A DNA stretch of 64,000 nucleotides from Vicinamibacteria bacterium (lineage in GTDB: Bacteria; Acidobacteriota; Vicinamibacteria; Fen-336), in the NCBI GenBank assembly GCA_035570235.1, contig DATMML010000052.1, positions 1-64,000 on the forward strand, read 5' to 3'. The translations under genes and the position numbers were made by a program. The notes below the pieces were generated by a model. That model ran no database searches, had not been told where the DNA came from, and worked only from the letters and a program-made list of their open reading frames with translations. Shown piece by piece: positions 24,468 through 46,864 of this stretch; positions within the stretch are counted from its first letter, which is position 1, and each line of letters starts with the position of its first letter.

Positions 24468-24643
24468 AGTCCTTGACCTCGCCCAGGGCGATTCTCCCGA
24501 CCAAGGGAACTCTTGATCCCATGCCTTCTACGGAACAGGCTGGTGTTCAGTGAGTTATTGCTGATCGGTAATCGGGTGTGTGCGTCGTCACTTGACCTCT
24601 GTCAATCGACCGTTAACCTCGATGTGTCCGCCGTCTCCCCTCC

Positions 24644-24659
24644 AGGAGGACTTATTGTG
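24644..24659 (+). promoter_or_regulatory. Ribosome site and GTG start of the beta-helix gene
   Basis: AGGAGGA at 24644-24650 lies six bases before the GTG at 24657. This start gives a normal signal peptide, whereas the longer frame from 24513 has none in the right place. Confidence 0.65.
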
Positions 24660-27035
24660 CTGGGCGTGCGCCGAGCCGTAAAGATCCGGAGTGTCGGCAT
24701 CTTTCTCGCGATGGTCAGCCCGGCCTTCCCGGCCCGCGCGGCGACGTTCTGCGTGAGCACCACGGCTGAGCTCAACAGCGCGCTCACGACCGCCCAAGGC
24801 AACGGGGTCGACAATGCGATTCAACTCGTGCAAGCCACGTACACGGGTAGCTTCCTTTTCTCCGCCAACCACGGCTTGACCGTGGGCGGTGGCTACGCCC
24901 CGGGGTGCGGCTCGCGCGTCGTGAATCCTGCCAATACCGTCCTTGATGGCAACACCGTCGGTCAGACCCTACGCCTGTTCAGTACCGTTCCGGTGGCTTT
25001 TGCGGTCGACGGCGTCACCATCAAGAACGGTCGCGCACTCTCGACAACCGACCCCTCGACCATGAATGGCGGCGGGCTCTGGGCCGTCGCCGGCAACACG
25101 ACCCCGGGGGGAAGCGTCACCCTGACCAATAGCATCGTCACTGGCAACCAAGCCTACCAGGACGGGGGCGGGGTCTACGTCCTCAAGGCGAACACCGTCA
25201 CCCTGACCAACAACACCATCCAGAGCAACAGTTCCGGTTTTGGGGGCGGGTTCTATGCGGTTGAGTCCAAGAACATCACCCTCACTGGAAACACGATCAT
25301 GAGTAACACCGTCGCCTTCGCAAGTCCTCCTCCCGGCGGAGCTGGTATCTACGTGGACACCACTTATCCGCTCACGGGCGAAACGGGCAAGAGCTCAACC
25401 GTCACCCTGAAGCAGAACACGATCAGCTCCAACCAGGGGCAGGGAATGTTTGTCTTGGGGTCCCAAACCGGGCTCTCCACGGCCGCCGTGACCGTGGTGG
25501 GTAACAGCTTCGACCATAACAGCGCGGTCAGCGGGGGCGCAATCGCCATGAGCTACGGCGACACGTTCGTGGGCTCGCAGAACGTGTTCTCCAGCAACAC
25601 GGCCAGCAGCAATGGCGCTGGCCTAGCCTTTTTCTTTACCCACGTTGTGAGCCTGACCGACAACGTGATGTTCGCCAACATCGCCGGTGCCAATGGCGGG
25701 GGTTTCTATGCCCTCCAACAAAACACCCTGAATGTAATCAACAACACCCTCAGCGGAAACAGTGCCACCTCCGGCGCCTCGTTCGGAGGGGGTATCTGGC
25801 TCCGGCTCGTCGCCGACACCGACGTGGCCAACATCTACAACAACGTCGTCTGGAGCAACACGGCCGGCTCGGGGGCGTCCGGCGATCTGGCCATCGACAA
25901 CGACGGCAACACCAACGGTGTCTTTTCTCCCGTCAACCTGTTCAACAACGACTTCAACCAAGCGGCCAGCGGATTCTTCATCACCCAAGCCGGCTTCAGC
26001 ATCCCCCCCAGCAATCTGAACAACCAGGACCCGAAGTTCGTGAACGTCGCCGCTAACAACTACTCGCTTCAGGCCTCCTCGCCTTGCATCAACACGGGCA
26101 CCAACAGCGCGCCCGGCCTGCCCCCGCTGGACGGCGCCGGGTCCTTCCGGATCTCCGGCCCTGCGGTGGACATCGGCGCCTTCGAGTTCGGCGCCCTCGC
26201 GTACCATAAGCGGAGGCTCGTGGACTTTGACGGCGACCTCATCTCCGACATCACCGTCTATCACTCGGCGTCCGGGCTCTGGTACACGCGTCAGTCCTCC
26301 ACGGGGACGACGGTGTCGATGGGTTTCGGGGGGACGGGCTATACACCCGTGCCGGGAGACTACGACGGCGACGGGAAGACTGACTTTGCGGTGTTCCACG
26401 ATGCCACGGGGCTCTGGTTCATCAAGTACTCGTCGACGGGTGCGGTGGTGACGGTCGGATTTGGGGCCTCGGGGTACATTCCAGTTCCCGGGGACTATGA
26501 CGGCGACGGAAAGACAGACATCGCGGTCTACCACCCGCCGTCGGGGCTGTGGTTCGTTCAGCAGTCCAGCACGGGGACTACCTTCTCCATGGGCTTTGGG
26601 GGCACCGGCTATACGCCCGTGCCCGAGGACTACGATGGCGACGGAAAGACAGACCTCGCCGTCTACAACGCCAGCTCAGGCCTGTGGTTCATTCGCCCGT
26701 CGTCCACGGGAACGACTTTTTCGGTCGGGTTCGGTGGCTCCGGTTACACGCCGGTCGCGCTCGACTACGACGGGGACGGCCGGGCCGACATCGCGGTCTA
26801 CCATCCCCCCACCGGCCTGTGGTTCGTGCGGCAAACGACGACGGGGGCCACCTTCAGCCTCGGGTTCGGGGGTACCGGCTACGTCCCCGTCCAAGGCTAC
26901 TATGACGCGGACTGGGCACGGGGGGATCTGGCCGTCTACAATTCCGCCTCCGGCTTGTGGTTCATACGCCAGTCGTCCACCGGCACGACCTTCAGCCTCG
27001 GCTTCGGGGGTTCGGGCTTCACGCCCGTGAACTGA
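24657..27035 (+). CDS. Secreted parallel beta-helix protein with six FG-GAP repeats (copy B)
   Basis: The 792-residue protein has a signal peptide (about 1-28, ending PAFPARA). A right-handed parallel beta-helix follows (about 60-510), rich in NTVxxN and GGGxY turns (GGGLWAV, GGGVYVL, GGGFYAV). A choice-of-anchor-like end is next (SPCINTGTN to GPAVDIGAFEFG), then six ~45-residue FG-GAP repeats (523-792) ending in TPVN. The helix part resembles polymorphic outer-membrane or polysaccharide-binding proteins; no pectate-lyase catalytic motif is apparent. It lies 189 bases after the glycan operon and may be displayed with the polysaccharide. Confidence 0.85.
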   Translation: MLGVRRAVKIRSVGIFLAMVSPAFPARAATFCVSTTAELNSALTTAQGNGVDNAIQLVQATYTGSFLFSANHGLTVGGGYAPGCGSRVVNPANTVLDGNTVGQTLRLFSTVPVAFAVDGVTIKNGRALSTTDPSTMNGGGLWAVAGNTTPGGSVTLTNSIVTGNQAYQDGGGVYVLKANTVTLTNNTIQSNSSGFGGGFYAVESKNITLTGNTIMSNTVAFASPPPGGAGIYVDTTYPLTGETGKSSTVTLKQNTISSNQGQGMFVLGSQTGLSTAAVTVVGNSFDHNSAVSGGAIAMSYGDTFVGSQNVFSSNTASSNGAGLAFFFTHVVSLTDNVMFANIAGANGGGFYALQQNTLNVINNTLSGNSATSGASFGGGIWLRLVADTDVANIYNNVVWSNTAGSGASGDLAIDNDGNTNGVFSPVNLFNNDFNQAASGFFITQAGFSIPPSNLNNQDPKFVNVAANNYSLQASSPCINTGTNSAPGLPPLDGAGSFRISGPAVDIGAFEFGALAYHKRRLVDFDGDLISDITVYHSASGLWYTRQSSTGTTVSMGFGGTGYTPVPGDYDGDGKTDFAVFHDATGLWFIKYSSTGAVVTVGFGASGYIPVPGDYDGDGKTDIAVYHPPSGLWFVQQSSTGTTFSMGFGGTGYTPVPEDYDGDGKTDLAVYNASSGLWFIRPSSTGTTFSVGFGGSGYTPVALDYDGDGRADIAVYHPPTGLWFVRQTTTGATFSLGFGGTGYVPVQGYYDADWARGDLAVYNSASGLWFIRQSSTGTTFSLGFGGSGFTPVN
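26223..27032 (+). repeat. Six-unit FG-GAP repeat array (B)
   Basis: Six units of about 135 bases encode residues 523-792. Unit 6 has a degenerate calcium loop (YYDADWARGD). Confidence 0.85.
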
Positions 27036-27726: not shown

Positions 27727-27729
27727 GCA

Positions 27730-27855
27730 GCGGATGGGAAGACTGATTTAGCGGTAGACCATCCGCCGAGCGGGCTCTGGTTCGTGCGCTCGTCGCTCAA
27801 CGGAAGCACTCTCACGACCGGCTCCCGAGGCCCGGCCTTTAGACCCGTGAACTAG
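27730..27855 (+). pseudogene. Orphan fragment of the FG-GAP module
   Basis: Just after the stop of the STN gene, 41 codons read ADGKTDLAVDHPPSGLWFVR, then a GSRGPAFRPVN end and a stop. This is the last unit of a six-repeat protein with no start and no upstream part. The GFGG turn has become GSRG and the calcium loop is incomplete. The fragment overlaps the tail of the leftward GT4 gene by 17 bases. It marks a lost or recombined copy of the module. Confidence 0.7.
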
Positions 27856-32243: not shown

Positions 32244-34082
32244 TTATAGCCCCGGCCCCACCGCGGTCGGAAGTCCTTGTCCCTGGTCGCCTTTGGCCTT
32301 ATCCAGCAGCATCCAACGGTCTCCCTCCAACCCTCCCATCCCGACGACGCGCCAGCCAGCCGACTCCGGGGAGGTGATGAACGGGCGGTGGAGGGTGTCC
32401 GTCTCCAGGTGTTTCCAGAGGTTCTCGTTGACATACAAGAGGGTGACTCCATGGGCGGCGAGAACGTCCGGAAGGGGGGCCGCCCCCTGCGCCTCGCTCA
32501 GGATTGAATAGTCGAAATTCAAGGCAGGGTCGCGCAGAAAGTCCCGCACTAAGTACCCGTTCAGCTCCATGACCCGCTCGTTGATCAGGAACCGCGTGGT
32601 CGGACGGCGAAAGACCTCGGCGAAGGGGGCCAGTCTCTCGTAAAGGGCCAGAAGAGGCCGTTCACCCGGCCGATAGAAAGTGCGGTACCGGTTGGGGGCC
32701 AGCCAGACGATGGTCACCATCATCAGCGGGACGAGGACCGGCCCACACTGCAGCCTCCGCCAGGGGCGCACCAGCACGAACAAGCACATGCCCGCCACTG
32801 CCATGAGAAATACGCCCTGGACGAAGAGATACGCCGGGCGCGGCCGCTGAGAGAGAAGGACCGCGGCCCCCACCGGCAGCACCGAAAACATGGCCCACCA
32901 AGCCCCTGCTCTCCGCCTCAGCCAGGCTTTCCACCAGTAGCGGCGCTCGCGCAAGAGCCGGTACGAGCCGGCCAAGAGGATCAGGCCGAGGCCGACGCTG
33001 GGAAGCAGTGGTCGAGGAGAGCCCAACTGCTGCGAGGGAGCGTAGTCGGGGTTGATCGTGCCGTGGGCCGAGTTGAAGAGGAGGAGCTGAAGGCCGGCGG
33101 GCGTGAGGCGAAGGTTCCAGAGGAAGTGTTCTGCCACCGCTTTCGGGTTCGCCCGCAACATCTGCGAGAGCGTGGGTCGTTCCTGGCCAAATGTCTCCTG
33201 CATCAAGTCGGTGCATTGCACCCAGGGGTCCTTCCTCCACTCCGGGTGACGCTGCTGGTAGCCAAACGCGAAAACCTGGCACATGTTCAGGACGTGCTTG
33301 TCATTAAGGCGGTAGTGGAGCGCCGGGAACTTGTAGACCGCGCGCGTGTACACCAGGCCGACGAGCGACCCGACCAACAGGATCGGAAGACCGTACGCCA
33401 ACGCGTAGACGGCGCCTCGCGTCCGCGCCACGGGCGGACATCGGAGCCGCGACCGCCATTCCCAGACCAGCCAGGACAGCGCCAGGACGGCGGTGGCAAC
33501 TATGTATTCATTGCGGACGAGGACCGAGGCGGCGAGAAAGACGCCCAGAGCAGCGCCGCGCGTCCAAGGGTTCCAACCCAGCGCGAGGATGAGCCAAGCC
33601 ACGAGGATGGGGATCACGGCAAACAGGTGCACGGTGAAGGTGGCGTCGAAGACGATGGGAAGGACCGCCCACCAGGCGGCGACGAGCCAGGCGATGCCCG
33701 GCGGCAGCAGCCGGCGGAGAAGGGCCAGGATGAGGACATCGAGTAGTAACACGATGAGAATCCGGTGAAGGGTGGTCGCCGCGTAGGGGTCGGTGGTTGT
33801 GAGGCGCATTACGGTTCCGAAGAAGGCCGCGTACAGGGGTGACCAGGCGATGTCGACCAGGGACCTGGTGAGCCAGAGGTAACCCTGGCAGTAGAAGGTA
33901 GCCTCGTCACCGGAGGTGAGGTCGCGGTATGACCAGATGCCCCACATCACCTTGGCCTGAAGCGCCAAGAGCGCCATATAGTAGAAAGAAGGGCGGCGAC
34001 CTAGGTCTTTGAGGGCCGATATCCAGGTCGGAGTGGCCCGAACTCCGGTGAGGCTCTCCCCCGAGCGATGATCACTCCCCAT
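32244..34082 (-). CDS. GT-C-like membrane glycosyltransferase
   Basis: The 612-residue protein has about ten hydrophobic segments, with an acidic first periplasmic loop (YRDLTSGDEATFYCQGYLW, about 50-70) of the type used by GT-C enzymes for lipid-phosphate sugars. The central loop has Cys residues (LNMCQVF, WVQCTDL), and a soluble C-terminal part of ~130 residues follows. It probably transfers a sugar from a polyprenyl-phosphate donor on the periplasmic side; the acceptor is unknown. It heads the leftward glycan operon, divergent from the 34402 methyltransferase. Confidence 0.78.
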   Translation of the reverse strand: MGSDHRSGESLTGVRATPTWISALKDLGRRPSFYYMALLALQAKVMWGIWSYRDLTSGDEATFYCQGYLWLTRSLVDIAWSPLYAAFFGTVMRLTTTDPYAATTLHRILIVLLLDVLILALLRRLLPPGIAWLVAAWWAVLPIVFDATFTVHLFAVIPILVAWLILALGWNPWTRGAALGVFLAASVLVRNEYIVATAVLALSWLVWEWRSRLRCPPVARTRGAVYALAYGLPILLVGSLVGLVYTRAVYKFPALHYRLNDKHVLNMCQVFAFGYQQRHPEWRKDPWVQCTDLMQETFGQERPTLSQMLRANPKAVAEHFLWNLRLTPAGLQLLLFNSAHGTINPDYAPSQQLGSPRPLLPSVGLGLILLAGSYRLLRERRYWWKAWLRRRAGAWWAMFSVLPVGAAVLLSQRPRPAYLFVQGVFLMAVAGMCLFVLVRPWRRLQCGPVLVPLMMVTIVWLAPNRYRTFYRPGERPLLALYERLAPFAEVFRRPTTRFLINERVMELNGYLVRDFLRDPALNFDYSILSEAQGAAPLPDVLAAHGVTLLYVNENLWKHLETDTLHRPFITSPESAGWRVVGMGGLEGDRWMLLDKAKGDQGQGLPTAVGPGL

Positions 34083-34401: not shown

Positions 34402-35520
34402 ATGGGCCTTCACGACGCCCTAACACGGCTTGGCTCCCAGGCGCTGCTGTGGCTGAAGGGGCCATCTGCCCTGAAGAGCCCGGTGGTGTTCCTAGCCCTT
34501 TACGATGCTGATCCAGAGGGGTTGATTGAAGCCGTCATGCGCCTCTACGGCTCGAACCGAGACTACACTTCCCACTACGTGCACCAGCTTGTCCGACACC
34601 ACCGGGCGAACCCGCTTATTACCTTGTACCTCGAATCGGAAATGGGCGGCCTTGGGCGCGCACGCCAATTCTTGGATGCCCTCGCCGGGTCCTTCCACCG
34701 CCCGAATCTCTTCCGCGGGAAGCGCTGCCTGGACGTGGGAGCAAATGCGGGCCAGACTCTTCTCGCCTTTTGCGAGAGGGGCGCGCGGGCGGCGGTGGGA
34801 GTGGAGATTGACCAGGCGCGTTACGAGACCGCCCGGTTGAACCTGGATGGGGCCCGGGGCGAGGGATATCAGCTGGAGGTCTACAACAATGACATCCTGA
34901 ACGGCGCCTTCATCAGAACCTTGTCGACGTTCGACATCATCTTTTGTCTCGATGTCATTGAGCACGTACAAGACCCGCGGCTCCTGGTCCAGAACCTTTC
35001 CTCTTTGCTAGCCCAAGAGCCTGAGGGCTTCATCTATCTCAAAGTGGGCAACCCCCTCTGCTACAAGAACGTACTGGCCGAGCCTCACTACCAGATCCCG
35101 GGGCTCGTGCTCTTGCCCCACGCGCTGGCGAAGGTCTACTACCAAGCCTCCTTCCCCCACGACGGCCTCAACTACAGCGTCCAATCGTGGCATTCATACC
35201 TCGGCTACGAGGAGATGTTCCTGGGCGAGGGCCTCCATTGTCGACCCTTGTACGACTGTCACATCTACCTAAAAGACCTCGACCGGTATCTGCGTCTCGT
35301 GAAGCCCACTCTTGCGACCTTGAGCGCGTTCTGCGAGTGGAAGCAGATCGATTCCGGTCTGCGACAAGAAGTAGAGGCCCATGTGCGCGGCTACCTGGCG
35401 GAGCTCGTCGATGTGTTCGACCGGTACCGCGCCACGGGCGATCCCGCTCTGGACCGGCAGATTTGGCTCAAGTACTTCCCCGTAGACAGCGAGCTGATCG
35501 TCTCGCGCCATTCAGGGTGA
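34402..35520 (+). CDS. Class I methyltransferase
   Basis: The 372-residue protein has motif I CLDVGANAGQTLLAF (about 110-124), GVEIDQARYETA (strand 2), and FDIIFCLDVIEHVQDPRLLV followed by a Ser-rich helix. This is the pattern of UbiE/UbiG-like and sugar methyltransferases. It has an N-terminal helical extension of about 100 residues and a C-terminal helical part of about 80. It starts the rightward pair with the membrane/FG-GAP protein, 37 bases apart. A role in methylating a surface glycan fits the context. Confidence 0.82.
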   Translation: MGLHDALTRLGSQALLWLKGPSALKSPVVFLALYDADPEGLIEAVMRLYGSNRDYTSHYVHQLVRHHRANPLITLYLESEMGGLGRARQFLDALAGSFHRPNLFRGKRCLDVGANAGQTLLAFCERGARAAVGVEIDQARYETARLNLDGARGEGYQLEVYNNDILNGAFIRTLSTFDIIFCLDVIEHVQDPRLLVQNLSSLLAQEPEGFIYLKVGNPLCYKNVLAEPHYQIPGLVLLPHALAKVYYQASFPHDGLNYSVQSWHSYLGYEEMFLGEGLHCRPLYDCHIYLKDLDRYLRLVKPTLATLSAFCEWKQIDSGLRQEVEAHVRGYLAELVDVFDRYRATGDPALDRQIWLKYFPVDSELIVSRHSG

Positions 35521-35557: not shown

Positions 35558-38350
35558 ATGCTGGGATTCCTTCCGGTCCTGTTCATCGTGGTGGCGTCCC
35601 TCGCGCTTGCGATTGAGGCCCGCGATAGAGAGGACAAAGTCGGGCTCCTCGAGACTGCCCTGATCGCATGCCTGCTCTCTGGTGCCTGGCTGACGGCCGG
35701 GACGGAACTGCTGAGTCTTGGGCACAAGCTCCAATTCGGATGGGTACTCGCTTGGTGGGCCGCTCCCACCGCCGCGCTCACGGTTTTCGTCTTCGGCCAG
35801 CGCAGACGCCTGTCGGCCTGGGTCTCGAAGCCGTCGGCGATCACGCCACAAACGCGATGGCTCGTCCTCTTGGGCCTGAGCGTTGTCGCCGCCGCCGGAC
35901 TGGTGGCCGTGTTGTCCCCCGTCAACAACTGGGACTGCCTCACCTACCACCTCCCGCGCCAGATCCACTGGATCCAGCAGCGCAGCGTGGCCTACTTCCC
36001 GGCCCGCAATATGCGGCAGGACATTCTGCCGCCCTTCGCTGAATTCGCGGGCACCCACCTCATGATCCTGTCCGGCGGCGACCGGTTTGCGAACCTCGTT
36101 CAGTGGTTCGCTTTGCCGATGAGCATGGCGGCCATCTCGCTGATCGCGCGAGACCTCGGTGGTTCTCCGTTTGCCCAGGCCCTCGGGGGCCTCCTGTTCG
36201 CCACCAATCCCGGTGTGTACATGTGGGCTACGAACGCCAAGAACGACCTCGTGCTCGCGGCCTGGCTCTCCTGCCTTGCGTGGCTGGTCCTGCGGACGCA
36301 TCTCGACCGCCGCTGCGGTCGGGGTCGGGCGGCGCTCATCGGGATCGCTCTCGGCCTGTCGCTCCTTACCAAGAGCACCGCGGTCTTTTTCGCGGCGCCT
36401 CTCTGCGCTCTCCTTGGCGTCGTCCTCCTGCTCCAGCACGGGCTTTCTAGCTGGAGACAAGCCGCCTGGATTGGAATGGCGGCCCTCCTGCTGAACGCCG
36501 GCTACTTCGTCCGCAACGAGCGATGGTTCGGCTCGCTGACGGGCCCCGTCAGCGTCGGAGAAGGCGGCTACGCGGTGTTCGCCCAGACCCGTGAGCCGGC
36601 CGCTCTCGTCTCAGGCGTCGTGCGGAACGTGGCCATGCTGTTGGGTACCCCCAGCCCGGCCGTGAACGGAGCGCTCACGAAAGCGGTCGCCGAGCTCCAC
36701 CGGCTGATCGGGTTCCCGCTGAATGACAGCCGTACCACCCTGCGCCCGGACATGGACTTCAGCGTGGGGGGCACCCTCTACGGCGGAGAGGATGTCATGA
36801 CGGCACCGCTCCACATGCTGGTCGCGCTCGTTGTTCCCATCGTGGCCGCCGTCAAATGGCGGGGGGCAGGGTCGCGCCTCGGTTGGGTGTTCCTGGCGCT
36901 GCCATACCTCGGATTCGTCGGGATAGCCGGCTCCCTCACGTGGAGCATCTGGAACGCGCGCTACTACATCCCCTTCTGGTGTCTGTGGGCCCCGGCGGCG
37001 GCCGTCGCGCTGGCGGCCACCTTCCAGGAGAAGCTGCTGACCGCGCTAGCGATGGTAGCGGGCTTGTCTCTGCTCCCGACCGTGCTTTGGAACCCGATTC
37101 GTCCCCTGCTTGGCCCCGACAGCATTATCACTGCGGACCCGCTCGAGGCGATGCTCCGGTACCGGACGTCGTTGATTCAACCTTCGCTGGATGTGGCTGC
37201 CTTGGCTCGACGGCTCGGGCCTGCGCGCGTCGGTTTCGCACTGACCGGCGACGACCTCGAATACCACCTCCAGAAGATGCTGCTCGAGGCCGTGAAGCCG
37301 GAGCCCACGCTCTCCTCCTTCAACGCGTTGGTACCGAGGGGTCTTCTGAAGGACGAGCCCATACCCGACCTCGCGGTGGTGGTCCAGGATCTGTCGGCCG
37401 AGATCGTCCATGCCGCGAGCGGCACCGTATTTCTCCCCGTGGCGGAGTTCCCGCCCTACCGGATCTACTTGCCCCAGGGCAGCCGGGCCGCGACGCAGTT
37501 GAGGGGAGAGATCGCTACCGCTCATCGTGACGCGGCTCACGACTTCGACGGGGATGGCAGGGCCGACTTCATCACGTTCGATCCCGATGCAGCCCTTTGG
37601 TGCATCCGCGGCTCCACCGCGGGCGAGTCCTGCCTCCAACACGGAGCGGCCGGGTACGAGCCGTTGCTCGGCGATTTTGACGGCGACGGCAAGACCGACT
37701 TGGCGGTGTTTCACGTAGCTACCGGTCTTTGGTTCATCCGGAACTCCTCGGACGGAAGGGTCGTCCAGATCGCTCATGGTGGCCCCGGTAGCGTGCCCGT
37801 TCCCGCAGACTACGACGGAGACGGCAAGACGGACCTGGCCGTCTTCTATCCGGCCGAAGGCCTCTGGTACATCCGACGATCATCGGACGGAAGGGTCGTC
37901 CAGATCGCTCACGGCGGCCCCGGCAGCGTGCCCGTTCCCGCAGACTATGACGGAGACGGAAAGGCGGACGTGGCCGTCTTCTATCCCGCGCAGGGCGTTT
38001 GGTACATCCGACGATCGTCGGACGGACGCGTCACCCGGGAGGAGTTCGGCGGGCGCGACTACGTTCCCCTGCGCGGCGACTTTGACGGCGACGGCAAGAG
38101 CGACCTGGCGGTTGTCGATCCCACCGGTCGCTACTCCTTCATTCGGGGCTCCCGGAACGGAGCGACGTCGACCTTTGACGTTCCCCGCAACATGGGCTGC
38201 ATGCCGGTCCCTGCCGACTACGATGGAGACGGCCGGACCGACCTCGCCTTCTACTGTCGGGAGAGTGGGATCTGGTGGGTGAGGTCGTCACGCAGCGGTG
38301 TCACGTTCACCCGGCGCTTTGGCGGTGCTAAGTTCATAGGCGTGAGATAA
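35558..38350 (+). CDS. GT-C-like membrane protein fused to six FG-GAP repeats (copy D)
   Basis: The 930-residue protein begins with about twelve hydrophobic segments (1-540). The first large loop has NNWDCLTYHLPRQIHWIQQR, a pattern typical of a GT-C/ArnT-like membrane family. A ~120-residue soluble linker follows, then six ~45-residue FG-GAP repeats (662-930) ending at the stop. Units 2 and 3 are nearly identical to each other. The repeats should face the periplasm or cell exterior. A membrane transferase carrying this module is unusual; the other three copies follow signal peptides. Possible roles are glycan binding or holding the enzyme near its substrate, both inferred. Confidence 0.8.
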   Translation: MLGFLPVLFIVVASLALAIEARDREDKVGLLETALIACLLSGAWLTAGTELLSLGHKLQFGWVLAWWAAPTAALTVFVFGQRRRLSAWVSKPSAITPQTRWLVLLGLSVVAAAGLVAVLSPVNNWDCLTYHLPRQIHWIQQRSVAYFPARNMRQDILPPFAEFAGTHLMILSGGDRFANLVQWFALPMSMAAISLIARDLGGSPFAQALGGLLFATNPGVYMWATNAKNDLVLAAWLSCLAWLVLRTHLDRRCGRGRAALIGIALGLSLLTKSTAVFFAAPLCALLGVVLLLQHGLSSWRQAAWIGMAALLLNAGYFVRNERWFGSLTGPVSVGEGGYAVFAQTREPAALVSGVVRNVAMLLGTPSPAVNGALTKAVAELHRLIGFPLNDSRTTLRPDMDFSVGGTLYGGEDVMTAPLHMLVALVVPIVAAVKWRGAGSRLGWVFLALPYLGFVGIAGSLTWSIWNARYYIPFWCLWAPAAAVALAATFQEKLLTALAMVAGLSLLPTVLWNPIRPLLGPDSIITADPLEAMLRYRTSLIQPSLDVAALARRLGPARVGFALTGDDLEYHLQKMLLEAVKPEPTLSSFNALVPRGLLKDEPIPDLAVVVQDLSAEIVHAASGTVFLPVAEFPPYRIYLPQGSRAATQLRGEIATAHRDAAHDFDGDGRADFITFDPDAALWCIRGSTAGESCLQHGAAGYEPLLGDFDGDGKTDLAVFHVATGLWFIRNSSDGRVVQIAHGGPGSVPVPADYDGDGKTDLAVFYPAEGLWYIRRSSDGRVVQIAHGGPGSVPVPADYDGDGKADVAVFYPAQGVWYIRRSSDGRVTREEFGGRDYVPLRGDFDGDGKSDLAVVDPTGRYSFIRGSRNGATSTFDVPRNMGCMPVPADYDGDGRTDLAFYCRESGIWWVRSSRSGVTFTRRFGGAKFIGVR
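37541..38347 (+). repeat. Six-unit FG-GAP repeat array (D)
   Basis: Units start at 37541, 37673, 37808, 37943, 38078 and 38216. The 135-base stretches running from within one unit into the next at 37755-37890 and 37890-38020 are nearly identical, which shows recent duplication. Confidence 0.88.
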
Positions 38351-40145
38351 GCGAGGTCGTCACCCTGTGCGTCGGTCCCGTCGAGAGGCTCGGCGGGCGG
38401 GGTAGGACGGTCTTGGAGAGGGCGGTGGGTCTGACGGCGACAGAGGGCTTGCTCCGGACAAGGACCCTTATTGCACGCGAGCCTTGGCGGTACCGAGGCC
38501 GACTACATCGGGAACGCTAGCGGATGTAACCCAGGGATCTCAGCCTGTCCATCGTCTCCTTGGCGAGGGTTTGGCCCTCAGCGTGGCCTACGCGGCCGGC
38601 CGTCTGGCGCCGAAGTGCTGCGTCCAGCATGGCGGCGAGCCGCGCGTAGCTTTGGGCGGCGCTCGACGACAGGAGATTGCGACGCTCACCGGGGTCGGCC
38701 TCGAGGTCGTAGAGTTCCCGCTTATCGGGGGTGAGTGGGATGAAGGCACGACCGTATTGGGAGACCGTGTCCGCTCGTATTCTCAGAGTGTACTTGAGGT
38801 GCTCCGAGCGCACGCTCTTTGCCTCGGTGTCGCCCGCCAGGGATTCGCTATAGGCGAAGCTCGGTGATCCCTGGGCCCGGCCTTCCCACCGGGCCCTCAA
38901 AGAAACCCCCTGCATCTGTGTGGTGGGGCCGGATAGACGGACGACATCGAGGATCGTCGGCATGACGTCCAATGCGCTCGAGACCGACCGCATGCGAGTT
39001 CCTGCGTGCTGCTCGCTCGGGAGCTTGACAATGAGCGGGACGCGGACGAGTTCGTCGAAGAGCGTGTGGCCATGGCAGTCGTAAAAGGAGCACCAATCCC
39101 CGGCGTCGAGCGCTCTTTCGCCCAGCTGTTCGCCATGGTCACTCGTGAGAACGATGAGCGTCCGCTCATAGAGGCCCCTGGTCTTCAGGAACCCGATAAA
39201 TTCGCCGACCCACCGATCCACGGCTCGGACTCCCCCCGTGTAGAGAGCATCGGAGACCACGGGGTCGAACGCCCCGAAGTCCTTGAGAATCTGGACCGCC
39301 CGCGGCGATTCCCGTTCACGAGGCAGCCTTTGGTAAGCACCTTCGATCTCTGCCGCTTTGCTGCGGGGAAGGACGTCCGCGAGGAAGGTCGTTTCAAAAT
39401 AGGGTGCGTGGACCTCGTAGGTATGCCAGAAGATGAAGAAGGGGCGATCCTTCTGGCCATCGATCCACGAGTACATCGTCCGCATGTCGCGGGAGTCAAG
39501 TTTGACCATAGACGTGTCGTAGACAGAAAAGCCCCGACCGAAGCCGATTTGTGGATCGACGCCGCCGCCCCCGGTGAAGGCTGCGGTAGCGAAGCCCTTG
39601 CCGGCAAATACCTCCGCCAGCGTCGTTCTCGAGGAGTTGAGCCTCTCGTACTCCCCGGGGCTGGCTCCCTGGATAACCTGCTTTATGCTCCTGATGGACG
39701 CGGTGACGCCGTGACTCGTGGGGTAGAGAGAGGTCAACAGGCTCATATGCGAGGGCGTCGTCCATGGGGCGGCGGCGATGTGCGCCTCGAAGAGTACTCC
39801 GTCGCGAGCGAGAGCGTCGATGTTCGGGCTTACAACCCGCGCCCTGTAGCCATAGCAGTTGAGGCGGTCCGCACGGAGCGTGTCGAGGGAGATGAGGACA
39901 ACGTTGACAGCGCCTCGACCCCCGCAGGAGGAAAGAACGAGTAAGAGAAGTGCGGCCGACGCCCTCCGCCCCGTGGCCCTTAGCCACGCAGATTGTAAGA
40001 CGGGCTTGGTAGCTAGACCCCTACCCGGCGCGTGCTCGGGGTCCGGGAGCCCGCCCGCTAGAACCGAAGGAGATGAGCCTGAACGAGGCCCCGGGCACAA
40101 AGAGCTGAATCGCTTGTTACTCCAACTCAGTTCCACTCCAGGCTG
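37853..40145. repeat. Tandem segmental duplication, copy 1
   Basis: This segment (end of copy D, intergenic DNA, sulfatase 1 and its upstream flank) matches 40797-42786. Shared landmarks are GGTCTGACGGCGACA downstream, the whole sulfatase gene, and upstream GGTCCGGGAGCC and CAGTTCCACT. The last of these is the 3' end of the collar-domain gene, which is intact only in copy 2. Confidence 0.75.
38517..40136 (-). CDS. Sulfatase-superfamily lipoprotein, Thr at catalytic position (copy 1)
   Basis: The 539-residue frame has a lipobox (LVLSSC, Cys71) and then an alkaline-phosphatase/sulfatase fold: LISLDTLRADRLNCYGY, PWTTPSHMSLLTS (124-136) and VLTSDHGEQLGE. Standard sulfatases have C/SxPSR there, with the Cys/Ser made into formylglycine; here the residue is Thr126 and the Arg is His130. 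Thr nucleophiles occur in the phosphotransferase branches of this superfamily, so the reaction may be phosphoryl or phospho-group transfer rather than sulfate release. The first ~50 residues lie in upstream DNA shared with copy 2, where that frame is broken, so the true start is probably closer to the lipobox. Confidence 0.82.
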   Translation of the reverse strand: MELSWSNKRFSSLCPGPRSGSSPSVLAGGLPDPEHAPGRGLATKPVLQSAWLRATGRRASAALLLLVLSSCGGRGAVNVVLISLDTLRADRLNCYGYRARVVSPNIDALARDGVLFEAHIAAAPWTTPSHMSLLTSLYPTSHGVTASIRSIKQVIQGASPGEYERLNSSRTTLAEVFAGKGFATAAFTGGGGVDPQIGFGRGFSVYDTSMVKLDSRDMRTMYSWIDGQKDRPFFIFWHTYEVHAPYFETTFLADVLPRSKAAEIEGAYQRLPRERESPRAVQILKDFGAFDPVVSDALYTGGVRAVDRWVGEFIGFLKTRGLYERTLIVLTSDHGEQLGERALDAGDWCSFYDCHGHTLFDELVRVPLIVKLPSEQHAGTRMRSVSSALDVMPTILDVVRLSGPTTQMQGVSLRARWEGRAQGSPSFAYSESLAGDTEAKSVRSEHLKYTLRIRADTVSQYGRAFIPLTPDKRELYDLEADPGERRNLLSSSAAQSYARLAAMLDAALRRQTAGRVGHAEGQTLAKETMDRLRSLGYIR

Positions 40146-40561: not shown

Positions 40562-41089
40562 GGGCCTCTCCTCTCGCTGAAGAGTGGAGACGTGGAGTAG
40601 GACCAAAGAGAGGGCCTGCCAAAGCCGGGATTCCCGTCCGCCCCATCTGGGGCGCCCACCGACTACTTTGCGCCCCATTTCGAAACCGGTCAAGGAGGCG
40701 CACAGGCGCACCCTAGAAATGTCACTGTGCGAAAACTAGGCAGGCCCCCTGACAGGGAAATCGGGAGGCGACATGGAAGAGTAGCGATCTTCCTCCGCGG
40801 AAGGCCTCAGGTACATCCGACGACTATCGGACCGGGGCGTGACGCGGGACGTGTTCGGCGGGCCAAGCGTCGTTCCCCGTTGCGGCGACTTCGACGGCGA
40901 CGGCAAGGGGACGACCTGGCGGTTGTCGAATCCCACGGATCGCTACCCGGAGCCACGGAGCCAGCGCGCGGCTACCGCGCCCTTCGAGAGGAGTGATGGG
41001 GTCTGACGGCGACACACGTCTGCTCGGTGAGGAGGACCCCTTATGGCACCCGAGCGGGGAGGTGGCGAGGCCGACCACATCCGGAAGCG
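40562..41089. other. Intergenic region holding a decayed module
   Basis: Between the ELW-like start and the end of sulfatase 2 there is no intact gene. Bases 40797-40945 are an FG-GAP fragment, listed separately. The rest, to 41089, matches the DNA downstream of sulfatase 1. Confidence 0.6.
40797..40945 (+). pseudogene. Decayed FG-GAP fragment from the duplicated copy D end
   Basis: The bases read EGLRYIRRLSDRGVTRDVFG-like, then CGDFDGDG, then a one-base disruption before a DLAVV-like stretch. This matches units 3-5 of copy D (around 37853-38130) with at least one frame break and the last unit missing. It has no start codon. It is the left end of duplicated segment 2. Confidence 0.7.
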
Positions 41090-42607
41090 TTAACGGACGT
41101 AGCCCAGGGACCTCAGCCTGTCAATCGTCTCCTTGTCGAGGGTCTGGCGCTCAGCCTGGCCTACGCGGCCGGCTGTCTGGCGCCGCAGTGCCGCGTCCAG
41201 CACGGTGGCGAGACGCTCCCGGGCAGGGTCGGCGTTCGGCAACAGGAGGTTGTGGGTCTCGCCCGGGTCAGCCACCAAGTCGTAGAGTTCTCGCGTGTCG
41301 GGCGCCGATGGGATGAAGGCGCGGCCGCTTTGGGCGACGGTTCCCGCTGGTATTCTCACGATGTACTTGAGGTGTTCCGAGCGCACACTCTTTGCCTCGG
41401 CATGGCCTGCTAGGGACTCGCTATAGGCGAAGCGCGGCGGTCCCTGTACGCCGCCTTCCCACCGCGACCGCAAGGACTCCCCCTGCATCTGGGTCGTGGG
41501 GCCGCGTACAGCGGCAACATCGAGAATCGTCGGCATCACGTCCACGGTGCTCGAGACCGATGGCACACGGACTCCAGCGTGCCGCTCTCCCGGAAGCTTG
41601 ACGATGAGCGGGACGTGGATGAGTTCGTCGAAGACCGTTTGGCCATGGCAGTCGTACCAGCTCGAATAGCACCAATCGCCGGCGTCGAGGGGCCTCTCGC
41701 CCAACTGTTCCCCATGGTCACTAGTGAGAACGATGAGTGTTTGATGGTAGAGGCCCTTCTTTTTCAAACTGTCCACAAACTCTCCGACCCACCGATCCGC
41801 GGCCCGGACTCCCCCGGTGTACAGCGCATCGGAGGCGACGGGGTCGAAGGCGCCAAAATCTCTCAGGATTTGGACGGGTTTGGCCGACTCCGGCTGTTCG
41901 GCCGGGGGCAGCCTTTGGTACGCGGCCTCGAGGTGGGCGGCTTTCTTGCGCGGAAGGACGTCGGCAAGGAACGTTGTCTCCAAGTAGGGTCCGTGGACCT
42001 GGTAGGTGTGCCAGAACAGGAAAAAGGGGCGATCCTGCTGACCATCGATCCACGAGCACATCCTCCCCACATTCTTGGTATTGAGCCGAAACATGGACGT
42101 CTCGTAAACGGCAAAGCCTCGATCGAAGCCGATCCGCGGATCGAGGGCCTTCCCGCCAGTGAAGGCGCCCGTTGCGAACCCCTCGCGGGCAAACACCTCG
42201 GCCAGCGTCGTCTTCGACGAAGCGAGTCTCTCGTAGTCGCCTGGCCGCTGCGTTGTGTGCATGACCTTGCTGATGCCTTCGAAAGACGCCGTGACGCCAT
42301 GGCTCGTGGGAACGAGTGACGTAAACAGACTCATGTGGGAGGGCGTGGTCCAAGGTGCGGCGGCGATGTGCGTCTCGAAAAGCACTCCATCCCTTGCAAG
42401 GGCATCGATGTTCGGACTCACAATCCTCGTCCGGTAGCCGTAGCAGTTGAGGCGGTCGGCCCGGAGCGTGTCGAGGGAGATGAGGACAACGTTGACCACG
42501 CCTCTAGGCGCGCACGAGGACAGAACGATGGAGAGTAAACCGACTAACGCGTTCCGACCCGTGCCACCTACCACGCAGATTGAACGACTGGCTGAGAAGC
42601 GAAACAA
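41090..42607 (-). CDS. Sulfatase-superfamily lipoprotein, Thr at catalytic position (copy 2)
   Basis: The 505-residue paralogue of the 38517 gene is co-linear with it throughout. It has a lipobox near IVLSSC (Cys32), LISLDTLRADRLNCYGY, and PWTTPSHMSLFTS with Thr87 in the formylglycine position and His91 replacing Arg. The Asp/His pair in VLTSDHGEQLGE is kept. All superfamily metal-binding regions seen in copy 1 are present, so both copies look functional. The ATG at 42607 gives a normal signal peptide. It lies 148 bases downstream of the collar-domain gene. Confidence 0.85.
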   Translation of the reverse strand: MFRFSASRSICVVGGTGRNALVGLLSIVLSSCAPRGVVNVVLISLDTLRADRLNCYGYRTRIVSPNIDALARDGVLFETHIAAAPWTTPSHMSLFTSLVPTSHGVTASFEGISKVMHTTQRPGDYERLASSKTTLAEVFAREGFATGAFTGGKALDPRIGFDRGFAVYETSMFRLNTKNVGRMCSWIDGQQDRPFFLFWHTYQVHGPYLETTFLADVLPRKKAAHLEAAYQRLPPAEQPESAKPVQILRDFGAFDPVASDALYTGGVRAADRWVGEFVDSLKKKGLYHQTLIVLTSDHGEQLGERPLDAGDWCYSSWYDCHGQTVFDELIHVPLIVKLPGERHAGVRVPSVSSTVDVMPTILDVAAVRGPTTQMQGESLRSRWEGGVQGPPRFAYSESLAGHAEAKSVRSEHLKYIVRIPAGTVAQSGRAFIPSAPDTRELYDLVADPGETHNLLLPNADPARERLATVLDAALRRQTAGRVGQAERQTLDKETIDRLRSLGYVR

Positions 42608-42755
42608 CTATCCGGCGTCAGCTCGAGGTCCGGGAGCCTGCCCGCTAGAAGCGAAGGATGTGAGTCTGAAGGAGACCCCGCGCGCGAAGGGCCGAAGCCG
42701 AACCTCCAAGCCTGGGTCAAAGAGACGGTTGGGTTCGGCGTGACAACGTGCGCCT

Positions 42756-43709
42756 TCAGTTCCACTTCACGCTTGCCGTGTCACAGATCCCCTGGGTGTT
42801 CTGGACGTTTACGAGAAACGTCGAGCGCTCGGCGCCCTCAGGGGTTGACTCGCTCCAGGGGTCGATCGCCCACGCCACGAACACACAGGGACCGGTAGGC
42901 ACGACCGAGGATTCCAGTGCTTGCGGCTCGAGCTTGGACCCCGGGGCGGGGGCGTGTTCGAATCGGAACACAAAATGACGTGCCTCGCTCCCCGTATTCT
43001 CGAGGGTCCATTGACAGGCGGTCCGTGCAGCGCAAGGCTGCATCCCGATCGTGCCCGCCTCCCGATCTCCATCCAATGACCGAGGGACCGCACACTCCGG
43101 CCCGCAGCCGGGAGGGTTGATGATCCAGGCCGCGACCTTCGCCCCGCTCTTCTTCGGCGAGACCACGGCATCCTTGTCGATGATGGTCGCGGACTTGAGG
43201 ATCTTGCCCTCGAGCCTTACCTCGACGTTCATCTTGTAGCCCGGGGGCAGGGTTAGACCCACTTCGGGCTTGGTGGCACCCGCGCCCCCTTCGGCTTTGA
43301 CGGCGTGAACGCCCGCATAAATGAAATGGCGCAGAGGTTGGCCGCCCGCCGGGGGTGTGTTGCCCCGGAGCTCGGGGACGCGGAAGGTCTTGGCGGCCGA
43401 GCTCCCGGCCGGACCCTCGCCGAGCACTGTGGCCAGGACGGGATAGGCGCTCACGTCGTAAGAGCGGCCGTCACACTCCAGCCAGCCCCGGCGGTTCAAC
43501 TCTTCGGTGATCCCTGCCCCCTCGGCCTTGCCGGGTGCGACGAAGGCCCGGATCTCGCCGACAATCCAACCCTCCTTCGATACCAGGGGAGGTCCTGGTC
43601 TGGCGGACGCGGGCTTTGTGGGTGGCACTGATTGCGAGGGCTGCGTCGCGCCAACCGCCGAGGCCAGCACGCAAAGCCAACCCGCCAGGGTCAGAGTGTC
43701 ACTGCGCAT
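42756..43709 (-). CDS. Secreted protein with phage tail-collar-like domain
   Basis: The 317-residue protein has a signal peptide (AGWLCVLASAVGATQ). A ~70-residue domain follows the tail-collar pattern: GEIRAFVAPG, GWLECDGRSYDVSAYPVLAT and FRVPELRGN. A C-terminal part of about 180 residues has two Cys pairs (PPGCGPECAVP, QPCAARTAC). Collar domains are best known in phage tail fibres but also occur in bacterial secreted proteins. No other phage gene is nearby, so a prophage is unlikely. ATG 43709 has a GGAGGG ribosome site; the frame start at 43787 lacks one. The last codons recur in the upstream flank of sulfatase 1. Confidence 0.75.
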   Translation of the reverse strand: MRSDTLTLAGWLCVLASAVGATQPSQSVPPTKPASARPGPPLVSKEGWIVGEIRAFVAPGKAEGAGITEELNRRGWLECDGRSYDVSAYPVLATVLGEGPAGSSAAKTFRVPELRGNTPPAGGQPLRHFIYAGVHAVKAEGGAGATKPEVGLTLPPGYKMNVEVRLEGKILKSATIIDKDAVVSPKKSGAKVAAWIINPPGCGPECAVPRSLDGDREAGTIGMQPCAARTACQWTLENTGSEARHFVFRFEHAPAPGSKLEPQALESSVVPTGPCVFVAWAIDPWSESTPEGAERSTFLVNVQNTQGICDTASVKWN

Positions 43710-44155
43710 CAACGTTCCCTCCGACGGGCCCCTGGCTTGAGCCAAGGTAGCCCGAGCCACAGCAGTCGACTCTTCCGTCGCCACCAATCATCTCATGGGC
43801 ACAACGACCGCATCGCCATACCCCGCCGTACGGCCGCCTGGTTGGAGGAGGCGGTACGTAGAGCGAGGGTGTGGGCCGGCACCGACCCATCAACTGAGGC
43901 CTTGAGCCGCCGCGGCCGGGGGGACGGGAGAGCCGGCTGTGGGAAGAACACCCGGCCCTCACGCGAGACCTGCTCGCTCCGGCTGCGGCCTCTCAGATCG
44001 TCTTCGCAACCAGCCCCCTCTAGCATTCTGACCTCTCGTACCACCTCGCGATAACCAGGATGACGGCGGTGAAGGGGGACCCATCTGGCAAGCCCGGACG
44101 TGCTACAATCGCCATCCCTCCGCCCCCATTCAAGATGGGAAGAAAGGCAGCTGAA
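43710..44155. other. Divergent intergenic region
   Basis: About 446 bases without a convincing gene separate the leftward collar protein from the rightward copy C. An extended -10-like element lies at 44101-44109. Confidence 0.5.
44101..44109 (+). promoter_or_regulatory. Putative extended -10 element (TGCTACAAT)
   Basis: TGCTACAAT lies 47 bases before the ATG at 44156 and matches TGnTAnAAT. No convincing -35 is seen. Confidence 0.4.
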
Positions 44156-46864
44156 ATGAGAACCGGAAGAACGACGATGGTCTTGGGGACGTTGTCGTTG
44201 CTTCTCCTTGGCGTCCTCGACGCTCAGGCCCAAAATCTCATTCAGAACCCGGGCTTCACCGGCGGCTTCAGCAACTGGACGATCATTCCTGGTGGGAACT
44301 ACACCGTAGGCTGGGACGGTACGGTTGGAAATGCCGCCCTTGGTGCGGCCCAGGTCACCCTTACGTCCCCGTCCACCACGGACTTCCTTGCCCTCAAGCA
44401 GTGCGTTCCGGTAAGCGGCTCTACGGTCTACGACGTGAGCGGGAGCGGTCGCTATCCCAGCGGGGTCTCCGTGGTACCTGACCTTGCCCTGCTCTTTTCC
44501 TACTTCACGGATGCGGCCTGCACCACCAGCGCTGGAGGGTCGGTGGATAGCCTTCAGCTGACAGGCAGCACAACTCCTGCCGACACCTGGGCGACCTCGA
44601 ACTTTCTACAGGGCATCACGACACCCAGCGGGGCCCACTTCGCGTTGCTCAGGCTCCGGTTCACGACACTCTCGGCCGGTAACTCGTCCGGATGGTTCGA
44701 CGACATCAGCCTTACCCCTACCCCCGTGGCGGACCTCTCGATCACGAAGACGGACGGGCATGAGTCCGCGGTCCCGGGAACGCAGATCACCTACACGATC
44801 GTGGCCTCGAATGCGGGACCGAGCGCGGCGAACGGCGCGACGGTGACGGACACGGTGCCGGGGACGATCACGGGCGTGACCTGGACATGTGTGGCGGCGG
44901 GCGGGGCGACGTGCACGGCGAGCGGGTCGGGGAGCATCTTCCAGGGCGTTAACCTGCCCATGGGAGGGTCGGTGACGTACAGCCTGACGGGTACGATAAG
45001 TCCTTCCGCCACGGGCACGCTCAGCAACACGGCGACGGTGACGCCGCCGTCCGCGGTGTTCGACCCGAACCAGGCGAACAATACCGCCACCGACACGGAC
45101 GCCCTAGTGCAGATGGGCGGAGCTTTGCCGGGGCCCCTTCCCCTGTTGCCGGGCAACAACTGGTGGAACCTCGACATCAGCGCTGCCCCCGTGGACCCGA
45201 ACTCGGCCAACTTCATCACCTTCATCGGCGGCTCCACGCCCGGGCATCCGGACTTCGGGGGAGACGTGTCCCTGGGCAGCGTTAAGATCTACGGGTTCCC
45301 CTACGCGGTGGTGAGCGGCACTCAACCCAAGAAAGCAGTTACGTTCGCGACCCCGGGGGAGAGCGACGGCGTCGACCACTCCAGCGGCCTGAGCTTCCCC
45401 TTCTACCCCATACCGGACCTGGCGATCACGCAGCCCCACTGGATCGAGGCGGGTGATCCCGGCAATGTAGACATCCGCAGTACCGATGACCGGCACCTGC
45501 TGATCGTGGACGCCGACAACAAGTACCTCTACGAGCTCTACAACGTCTTCTACGACACGGGCACCGCGCAGTGGCTGGCCGGCTCGGGGGCCTTCTTCGA
45601 CCTGAACAAGAACCACCGGCGGCCCGAGACCTGGACCTCGGCGGACGCCGCGGGGCTGGCCATGCTCCCGGGACTCGTCCGCTACGAGGAGGCCTTCGGG
45701 GCGGCGGAGATCGGGCACGCCTTCCGGGTCACGTTGCTCACCACGAATGGCTACGTCTATCCCGCGTCCCACTCGGGGGGATCGACGGGCGGCGCCCTTC
45801 CCATGGGGGCACGGCTGCGCCTCAAGGCGGGCAAGGACATCTCCTCCTTCACGCCCGAGGTGCAGAGGATCTTCCGGGCCATGAAGAAGTACGGCCTGAT
45901 CGTCGCCGACAACGGTACCAGCATGTACGTGAGCGGGACTTACGACACCCGCTGGGACAACAGCGTTCTCAACCCCGCTTTCGGCGCCCTGACCGCCAAT
46001 GACTTCGAGGTCGTCCAGCTCGGCTTCGGCGTCCCCACCGAGCTGAAGCTTGCCGATTTCGACGGTGACCGCCAAACCGACCTCGCCGCCTTCCAGTCGT
46101 CCTCGGGGCTGTGGTTCATCAAGCAGTCCTCCACGGGGACGACGACCAGTCTCGGCTATGGCGGCGCGGGGTATGTCCCGGTCCCTGCGGACTACGACGG
46201 GGACGGCAAAGCCGACATTGCGGTCTACCACCCGCCGACGGGGCTGTGGTTCATCCGGTCGTCCTCGACGGGGACCGACTCGGTGACGGGATTCGGGGGC
46301 TCGGGCTACGCGCCGGTGCGGGGCGATTTCGACGGGGACGGCAAGGCGGACCTCGCGGTCTTCCACGATGCGACCGGGCTCTGGTTCATCAAGAACTCGT
46401 CGACGGGGGCGGTGGTGACGGTGGGGTACGGGGGCACGGGGTACATCCCGGTTCCCGGCGACTACGACGGCGACGGCAAGACGGACATCGCCGTCTATCA
46501 CCCGCCCACGGGGCTTTGGTTCATCCGGAACTCGTCGACCCTGGCCACGACCACGGTCGGGTTCGGGGGCACGGGCTACACCCCGGTGCGGGGGGACTTC
46601 GACGGCGACGGCAAGAACGACATCGCGGTCTTCAACAATGCCAGCGGCCTCTGGTTCATCAAGCAGTCCCTGACCAACTCCGTCCTTACCCTTGGCTTCG
46701 GGGGGTCGGCCTACACCCCGGTGCCGGCGGACTTCGACGCGGATGGGCAGACCGACATTGCCGTCTACCACCAGCCCACCGGCCTTTGGTTCATCCGCCA
46801 ATCGACCACGGGGAACACGGTCAGCATGACCTTTGGCGGGCCGGGCTACGTGCCGGTGAACTGA
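44156..46864 (+). CDS. Secreted multi-domain protein with DUF11 and six FG-GAP repeats (copy C)
   Basis: The 902-residue protein has a signal peptide (TLSLLLLGVLDAQA), a carbohydrate-binding-like beta domain (LIQNPGFTGGFSNWTI, about 28-185), and a DUF11-type adhesin domain (DLSITKTDG, VTDTVPGTI, about 190-320). A ~300-residue domain follows (NNWWNLDISAAPVDPNSANF, then RPETWTSADAAGLAMLPGLV) that I recognise as a recurrent but uncharacterised secreted domain. Six FG-GAP repeats (634-902) end the protein. ATG 44156 gives the signal peptide. Extracellular adhesion or glycan binding is the best guess; enzyme activity in the middle domain is possible. Confidence 0.85.
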   Translation: MRTGRTTMVLGTLSLLLLGVLDAQAQNLIQNPGFTGGFSNWTIIPGGNYTVGWDGTVGNAALGAAQVTLTSPSTTDFLALKQCVPVSGSTVYDVSGSGRYPSGVSVVPDLALLFSYFTDAACTTSAGGSVDSLQLTGSTTPADTWATSNFLQGITTPSGAHFALLRLRFTTLSAGNSSGWFDDISLTPTPVADLSITKTDGHESAVPGTQITYTIVASNAGPSAANGATVTDTVPGTITGVTWTCVAAGGATCTASGSGSIFQGVNLPMGGSVTYSLTGTISPSATGTLSNTATVTPPSAVFDPNQANNTATDTDALVQMGGALPGPLPLLPGNNWWNLDISAAPVDPNSANFITFIGGSTPGHPDFGGDVSLGSVKIYGFPYAVVSGTQPKKAVTFATPGESDGVDHSSGLSFPFYPIPDLAITQPHWIEAGDPGNVDIRSTDDRHLLIVDADNKYLYELYNVFYDTGTAQWLAGSGAFFDLNKNHRRPETWTSADAAGLAMLPGLVRYEEAFGAAEIGHAFRVTLLTTNGYVYPASHSGGSTGGALPMGARLRLKAGKDISSFTPEVQRIFRAMKKYGLIVADNGTSMYVSGTYDTRWDNSVLNPAFGALTANDFEVVQLGFGVPTELKLADFDGDRQTDLAAFQSSSGLWFIKQSSTGTTTSLGYGGAGYVPVPADYDGDGKADIAVYHPPTGLWFIRSSSTGTDSVTGFGGSGYAPVRGDFDGDGKADLAVFHDATGLWFIKNSSTGAVVTVGYGGTGYIPVPGDYDGDGKTDIAVYHPPTGLWFIRNSSTLATTTVGFGGTGYTPVRGDFDGDGKNDIAVFNNASGLWFIKQSLTNSVLTLGFGGSAYTPVPADFDADGQTDIAVYHQPTGLWFIRQSTTGNTVSMTFGGPGYVPVN
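46055..46861 (+). repeat. Six-unit FG-GAP repeat array (C)
   Basis: Six units of about 135 bases encode residues 634-902. Units 2-4 are closest to units 2-3 of copy B (shared HDATGLWFIK and STGAVVTVG). Confidence 0.85.

Follow-up and report, generated by a model that had tools for sequence, protein, structure and literature searches.

We analysed a stretch of DNA of 64,000 nucleotides (the window) from a Vicinamibacteria bacterium, an uncultured member of the Acidobacteriota with a draft genome of 138 contigs (5.7 Mb). ORF D occupies positions 35558–38350 of the forward strand as a single open frame of 930 amino acids, from an ATG at 35558 to a stop at 38350 and with no internal stop codons. 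Pfam searches and an AF2 model (full-length mean pLDDT of 83) indicate a GT-C glycosyltransferase carrying a C-terminal six-bladed propeller. A methyltransferase gene on the same strand (34402–35520; Methyltransf_23, E = 1.8e-12) ends 37 nt upstream of the D start codon and is a possible operon partner. The window also encodes a polysaccharide exporter comprising a Wzm-like ABC-2 permease (18012–18866, + strand; Pfam ABC2_membrane, E = 3.1e-22) and a Wzt-like ATPase with a Wzt_C domain (19125–20567, + strand; Pfam ABC_tran and Wzt_C), together with glycosyltransferases of families 1 and 2, an NAD epimerase and methyltransferases; on this gene content, the locus is of the ABC-transporter (Wzm/Wzt) polysaccharide type. 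Divergently from the methyltransferase–D pair lies a gene for a 612-residue membrane protein (32244–34082, − strand) that looks GT-C-like by eye, with TSGDEATFYCQG after an early helix, and that has no Pfam or NCBIfam match. A phage tail collar domain protein (42756–43787, − strand) is also encoded inside the polysaccharide locus.

The first 527 residues of D (35558–37138) form the membrane domain, as delimited by hydropathy, the model, the match to ArnT and the presence of PMT_2 in homologues. Three extra N-terminal helices precede a GT-C core of 11 helices, which brings the count to about 14 membrane segments rather than the approximately 12 given in the preliminary description. D itself scores 17.4–18.5 bits against Pfam PMT, below the cut-off of 22.7 bits; PMT_2 is matched by 8 of 11 D homologues, and several longer relatives score above the cut-off. 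The predicted fold matches ArnT (5ezm and 5f15; Z = 19.3, 410 residues, 4.0 Å, 14% identity), Pmt4 (Z = 18.0) and oligosaccharyltransferases, and EmbA–EmbB at a Z score of only 15.2. ArnT, which transfers a sugar in the periplasm from undecaprenyl phosphate, shares the GT-C core fold with D, but has no propeller and uses lipid A as its acceptor. The loop NNWDCLTYHLPR (residues 123–134; 35924–35959), previously singled out as GT-C-like, proved to be conserved—D126, H131 and R134 are invariant in an alignment of 11 homologues with identities down to 21%, and at least 90% conserved in an alignment of 43 rows. The loop lies between helices 97–119 and 176–199 and is the first one of the core on the extracytoplasmic side; its acidic residue Asp126 is the candidate catalytic residue. 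These observations support the assignment of the membrane half of D to the GT-C superfamily as a PMT_2/ArnT-like glycosyltransferase, on the basis of homology and modelling.

Beyond the membrane domain, the model predicts a small soluble alpha/beta domain (residues 528–610; 37139–37387), at which unfused D homologues naturally terminate. It is followed by a disordered or flexible linker that marks the fusion point (residues 611–659; 37388–37534; encoded by unique DNA, with pLDDT < 50 over most of its length) and by the propeller (residues 660–930; 37535–38347). The loop carrying the catalytic Asp is established to face outwards in GT-C enzymes (see also PMC11127046), and counting helices from this loop places the C-terminal 420 residues of D outside, with the short loops richest in Arg and Lys falling inside. 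Given this count, the GT-C fold and the positive-inside pattern, a periplasmic location of the C terminus and propeller is well supported by inference, in agreement with the earlier expectation that the repeats face outwards; cytoplasmic placement, named beforehand as one of two refuting outcomes, is unsupported. The D module also has four cysteines that have no counterpart in the seven other copies in the genome; in the model, the pairs 682/692 and 881/900 each sit on neighbouring strands and would suit disulfides in an oxidising compartment. Taken jointly, the anatomy of D and the periplasmic placement of its tail are very probably correct.

The repeats of D exceed the curated cut-offs of two Pfam families, FG-GAP (E = 1.2e-27) and FG-GAP_3 (E = 3.9e-25). 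Each repeat of approximately 45 residues contains D-x-D-G-D-G (starting at residues 662, 706, 751, 796, 841 and 887) and most contain W-x-I/V, and the block ends exactly at the C terminus. Modelled alone, the module is predicted to form six blades (pLDDT of 88.2, pTM of 0.86). The final strand of the model completes the first blade and so closes the propeller, as in the PVL-type lectin AAL2 (PMC4483166). The module was said to be shared with three secreted proteins of the window, and it is—those of protein A (13478–14977, − strand; module at 13481–14305), protein B (24513–27035, + strand; module at 26208–27032), which has a beta-helix N-terminal part, and protein C (44060–46864, + strand; module at 46040–46861), which has a DUF11 N-terminal part, are 47–48% identical to that of D, with the same six repeats and the same C-terminal end. 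A short module-like fragment 3′ of B (27727–27849; a 42-codon frame) is possibly another relic. Four further carriers lie on other contigs (L139:5048–8569, L140:15666–17567, L141:8547–10907 and L142:5350–10137) and have varied N-terminal parts (by eye glycosidase-like, PQQ-propeller-like and DUF11-type; L140 is cut by a contig end); the D module is 47–50% identical to those of all seven other carriers, and, by eye, the carriers whose start is complete appear to be secreted. Compared with the other copies, the D module is poorer in Ser and Thr (11% versus 18–21%) and has the repeated Trp in five of six blades rather than in every blade, blade 5 lacking it. In a tree, it groups with the copies of the same genome, on a long branch outside the other seven (support of 82). 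Four of the eight carriers found in the genome fall within 33 kb (13478–46864) at the polysaccharide locus, which random placement would give with a probability of 5e-5 (a post hoc figure); the nearest relatives of the A and C modules lie elsewhere in the genome, on other contigs, and tandem copying is therefore not a ready explanation of the clustering.

Among solved structures, the closest match to the D module is UmbA4 (9oee), a six-bladed lectin propeller solved bound to teichuronic acid, a bacterial surface polysaccharide (PMC13274773). UmbA4 ranks first by profile (E = 1.8e-7), by Foldseek with the module alone (E = 6.2e-9) and by VIA (Z = 23.6, 273 residues, 2.9 Å, 23% identity), followed in VIA by PVL-type GlcNAc lectins (Z = 16.0) and then by TolB and Kelch folds (Z of approximately 14). 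With the full-length D model, UmbA4 fell outside the top Foldseek rows, yet was still first by VIA. Chain A of 9oee is labelled 'Secreted esterase', and we rejected its reading as an enzyme because the protein is the UmbA4 lectin (PMC13274773). UmbA4 shares with the D module the six-bladed propeller and the metal-site loops; unlike D, it is part of a secreted protein with trypsin-like and bulb-lectin portions in an antibacterial particle, not a membrane enzyme. Tyr551 of UmbA4, which is needed for activity (PMC13274773), aligns by phmmer with the repeated Trp of the module, under a numbering offset of 31 that we adopted because Tyr551 and Asn633 then both land on the right residue type. Of the two aromatic residues considered for sugar contact in UmbA4, Tyr551 and Trp668, only Tyr551 could be located on the module. 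This Trp may instead be structural, as it is kept in nearly every blade, whereas the pocket positions of UmbA4 diverge. With a fold match clearly above those to other propellers, the D module is predicted to be lectin-like.

Several lines of evidence indicate that D is one continuous gene and that the fusion is real. From the end of the GT-C part to the end of blade 1, the DNA occurs only once in the genome; partial matches set in only from blade 2 (the best-scoring is 77% identical over 99 bp), and exact words shared with the remainder of the window reach no more than 20 bp. GC content by codon position is even along D and continuous across the junction. With unique junction DNA and even codon composition, misassembly, the other refuting outcome named beforehand, is not suggested. 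An erroneous joining of two genes could be imagined in a draft of 138 contigs in which module repeats recur at several loci, but no repeat long enough for a misjoin spans the junction, frame and codon composition run through it, and a tandem duplicate ties the 3′ end of the module to the D locus, making such an artefact extremely improbable. This duplication copied the end of the D module together with the neighbouring sulfatase-family gene (38412–40109 versus 40982–42696, 77% identical; 80% in the block inside the module), leaving a duplicate of the module end and its downstream flank at 40740–41173 (+ strand; blastn and alignment) that has decayed through frameshifts and a deletion, whereas the copy within D is intact. 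The two sulfatase-family genes differ by a dS of 0.73 (74% protein identity), and the module end has therefore long lain beside such a gene. These tandem genes (38517–40136 and 41090–42607, − strand) apparently encode lipoproteins. The usual nucleophile motif of sulfatases is C/S-x-P-x-R; theirs reads T-T-P-S-H, and instead of formylglycine sulfatases the products may therefore be alkaline phosphatase superfamily members that act as phosphoesterases or phosphotransferases.

A real fusion might still be accidental, the GT-C gene having merged with the terminal part of a module gene, with the propeller tolerated but without a role. Its detection in one genome only, the long branch of the D module and the loss of Trp from blade 5 would all fit such an origin. 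However, all six metal-site motifs are intact, the duplicated module end has decayed when that of D has not, and blades 2 and 3 differ by a dN of 0.10 and a dS of 1.03 (dN/dS of about 0.1), although the signal is weaker and non-uniform between blades 3 and 4 (dN of 0.25, dS of 0.50; about 0.5). The decayed copy beside an intact D and the blade 2/3 ratio suggest that the module has been under selection as part of D, and we consider a tolerated accident unlikely.

A search for other GT-C proteins with C-terminal FG-GAP arrays, proposed along with the preliminary description, returned none. The tail is absent from D homologues at all 79 loci in named genomes (Cyanobacteria, Omnitrophota, Chloroflexi, Acidobacteriota, Flavobacteria and others; a few loci are cut by contig ends) and from the GT-C homologues in the family, class and phylum genome samples; an isolated D-x-D-type motif in an ORF truncated at the edge of a contig was not counted as an FG-GAP tail. 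Nothing similar to the fusion was found in viral contigs, plasmids gave matches to the module only (none covering most of D), and ten longer relatives have no other recognised C-terminal Pfam domain. The nearest relatives of D come from genomes corresponding to the metagenome-assembled genomes Acidobacteria bacterium ACD2, in which the protein ends without the module, and Vicinamibacteria bacterium ACD1, in which the frame is interrupted. Conversely, a polytopic N-terminal part was found on none of about 30 module-carrying loci in the phylum (some of them cut at the 5′ end). Secreted Acidobacteriota proteins have the same six-repeat FG-GAP module in the same C-terminal position as D, and a different family of the phylum (f38) is very rich in it; unlike D, these proteins are soluble and none of those sampled has a polytopic membrane part. 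Among 396 phylum genomes, GT-C homologues occur in 15, the module in 30 and both in 2, as by chance (P = 0.32). We found no account of an FG-GAP/GT-C fusion in the openly licensed literature that we searched. From the sequences searched, the fusion looks private to its source genome.

The layout of D has a counterpart in ORF12 (GT136) of Citrobacter youngae O1, which decorates a Wzm/Wzt-type polysaccharide with side-chain sugars in the periplasm; in vitro, its C-terminal CBM bound this polysaccharide in unmodified form, yet activity survived deletion of the CBM (PMC11127046). Compared by description, the two share a GT-C domain, a periplasmic, beta-rich domain that follows the final helix and a Wzm/Wzt-type locus, whereas ORF12 has 11 helices and an Ig-like C-terminal domain, and D approximately 14 helices and a propeller; because of this last difference, we cite ORF12 as an analogue only. 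The GT-C enzymes EmbC and AftD likewise have a C-terminal CBM that binds the acceptor glycan, and in the EmbA/B/C and AftD arabinosyltransferases the extracytoplasmic CBM contacts the acceptor polysaccharide (PMC11127046); these share with D the GT-C part and an extracytoplasmic C-terminal domain, and differ in having a non-propeller CBM and in acting on mycobacterial arabinan. Since D has the layout of ORF12 with a different C-terminal fold, we propose that it modifies an exported polysaccharide—the inner-membrane GT-C domain would take a sugar from a polyprenyl-phosphate carrier and, in the periplasm, attach it to the surface polysaccharide that the Wzm/Wzt locus makes and exports, while the propeller, of a calcium-binding type and on a flexible linker, would bind that polysaccharide and hold the acceptor near the active site. 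Such a role has been proposed for the CBMs of ORF12 and EmbC; in D, a lectin-like propeller would fill it. That the propeller probably holds the glycan that D modifies follows from the closest solved relative gripping a bacterial surface polysaccharide; we infer, for D, a lipid-linked sugar donor and a polysaccharide as acceptor and, for its copy of the module, the binding of calcium and of glycan. The idea that the module binds something the enzyme acts on, raised in the preliminary description, is partly supported and is the best-supported reading, given the UmbA4 lectin, the GT-C precedents and the export locus; of the two ligands then offered, a surface protein is a weaker candidate than a growing glycan.

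We consider this reading as a whole—a lipid-linked sugar passed to an exported polysaccharide, with the propeller holding the acceptor—to be evenly balanced between right and wrong. ORF12 works without its CBM (PMC11127046), and D homologues work without a propeller; the module Trp may be structural and is missing from blade 5 of D. The genome has no GtrA flippase, nor did the locus show a recognisable dedicated lipid-sugar synthase, its GT2 proteins matching many families only far below the cut-off. Propellers also bind proteins, and the main rival is that the module recruits D to a periplasmic or envelope partner (an exporter, enzyme or lipoprotein) rather than to a glycan. TolB, a six-bladed propeller with protein partners, and Kelch folds match the D module at a Z of 14, and the superfamily also includes integrin-type propellers (PMC8023676); the UmbA4 lectin nevertheless has a lead of over 7 Z units, and the matches ranked after it are lectins as well, making protein docking somewhat unlikely. 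D could instead glycosylate the Ser/Thr-rich loops of the module-bearing secreted proteins, its own module aiding the pairing, as the PMT family includes protein O-mannosyltransferases and the other seven modules exceed that of D in Ser and Thr. However, across genomes the GT-C homologues and the module proteins are found together no more often than chance predicts, which weakens any surface-protein substrate, and some members of the family have close homologues but no module at the threshold applied. We regard this alternative as very unlikely.

GT-C enzymes with a glycan-binding C-terminal domain are already known; what is new is a version with a lectin-like FG-GAP propeller, of which there is no other in the literature and sequences that we searched. 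If the propeller of D does capture the acceptor, GT-C enzymes would have gained acceptor-binding domains more than once and from different folds. Six-repeat FG-GAP propellers end many secreted Acidobacteriota proteins, and we found no account of their ligand; fusion to a likely polysaccharide-modifying enzyme offers a direct, testable guess at what that ligand is. More tentatively, and with considerable doubt on our part, the acidobacterial six-repeat C-terminal propeller may be an anchor that binds the surface polysaccharide of the cell itself, a role that D would reveal because the same module sits on an enzyme working on that polysaccharide. If so, the secreted proteins A, B and C, whose genes share the locus with D, would be held on the cell surface by the very glycan that D modifies.
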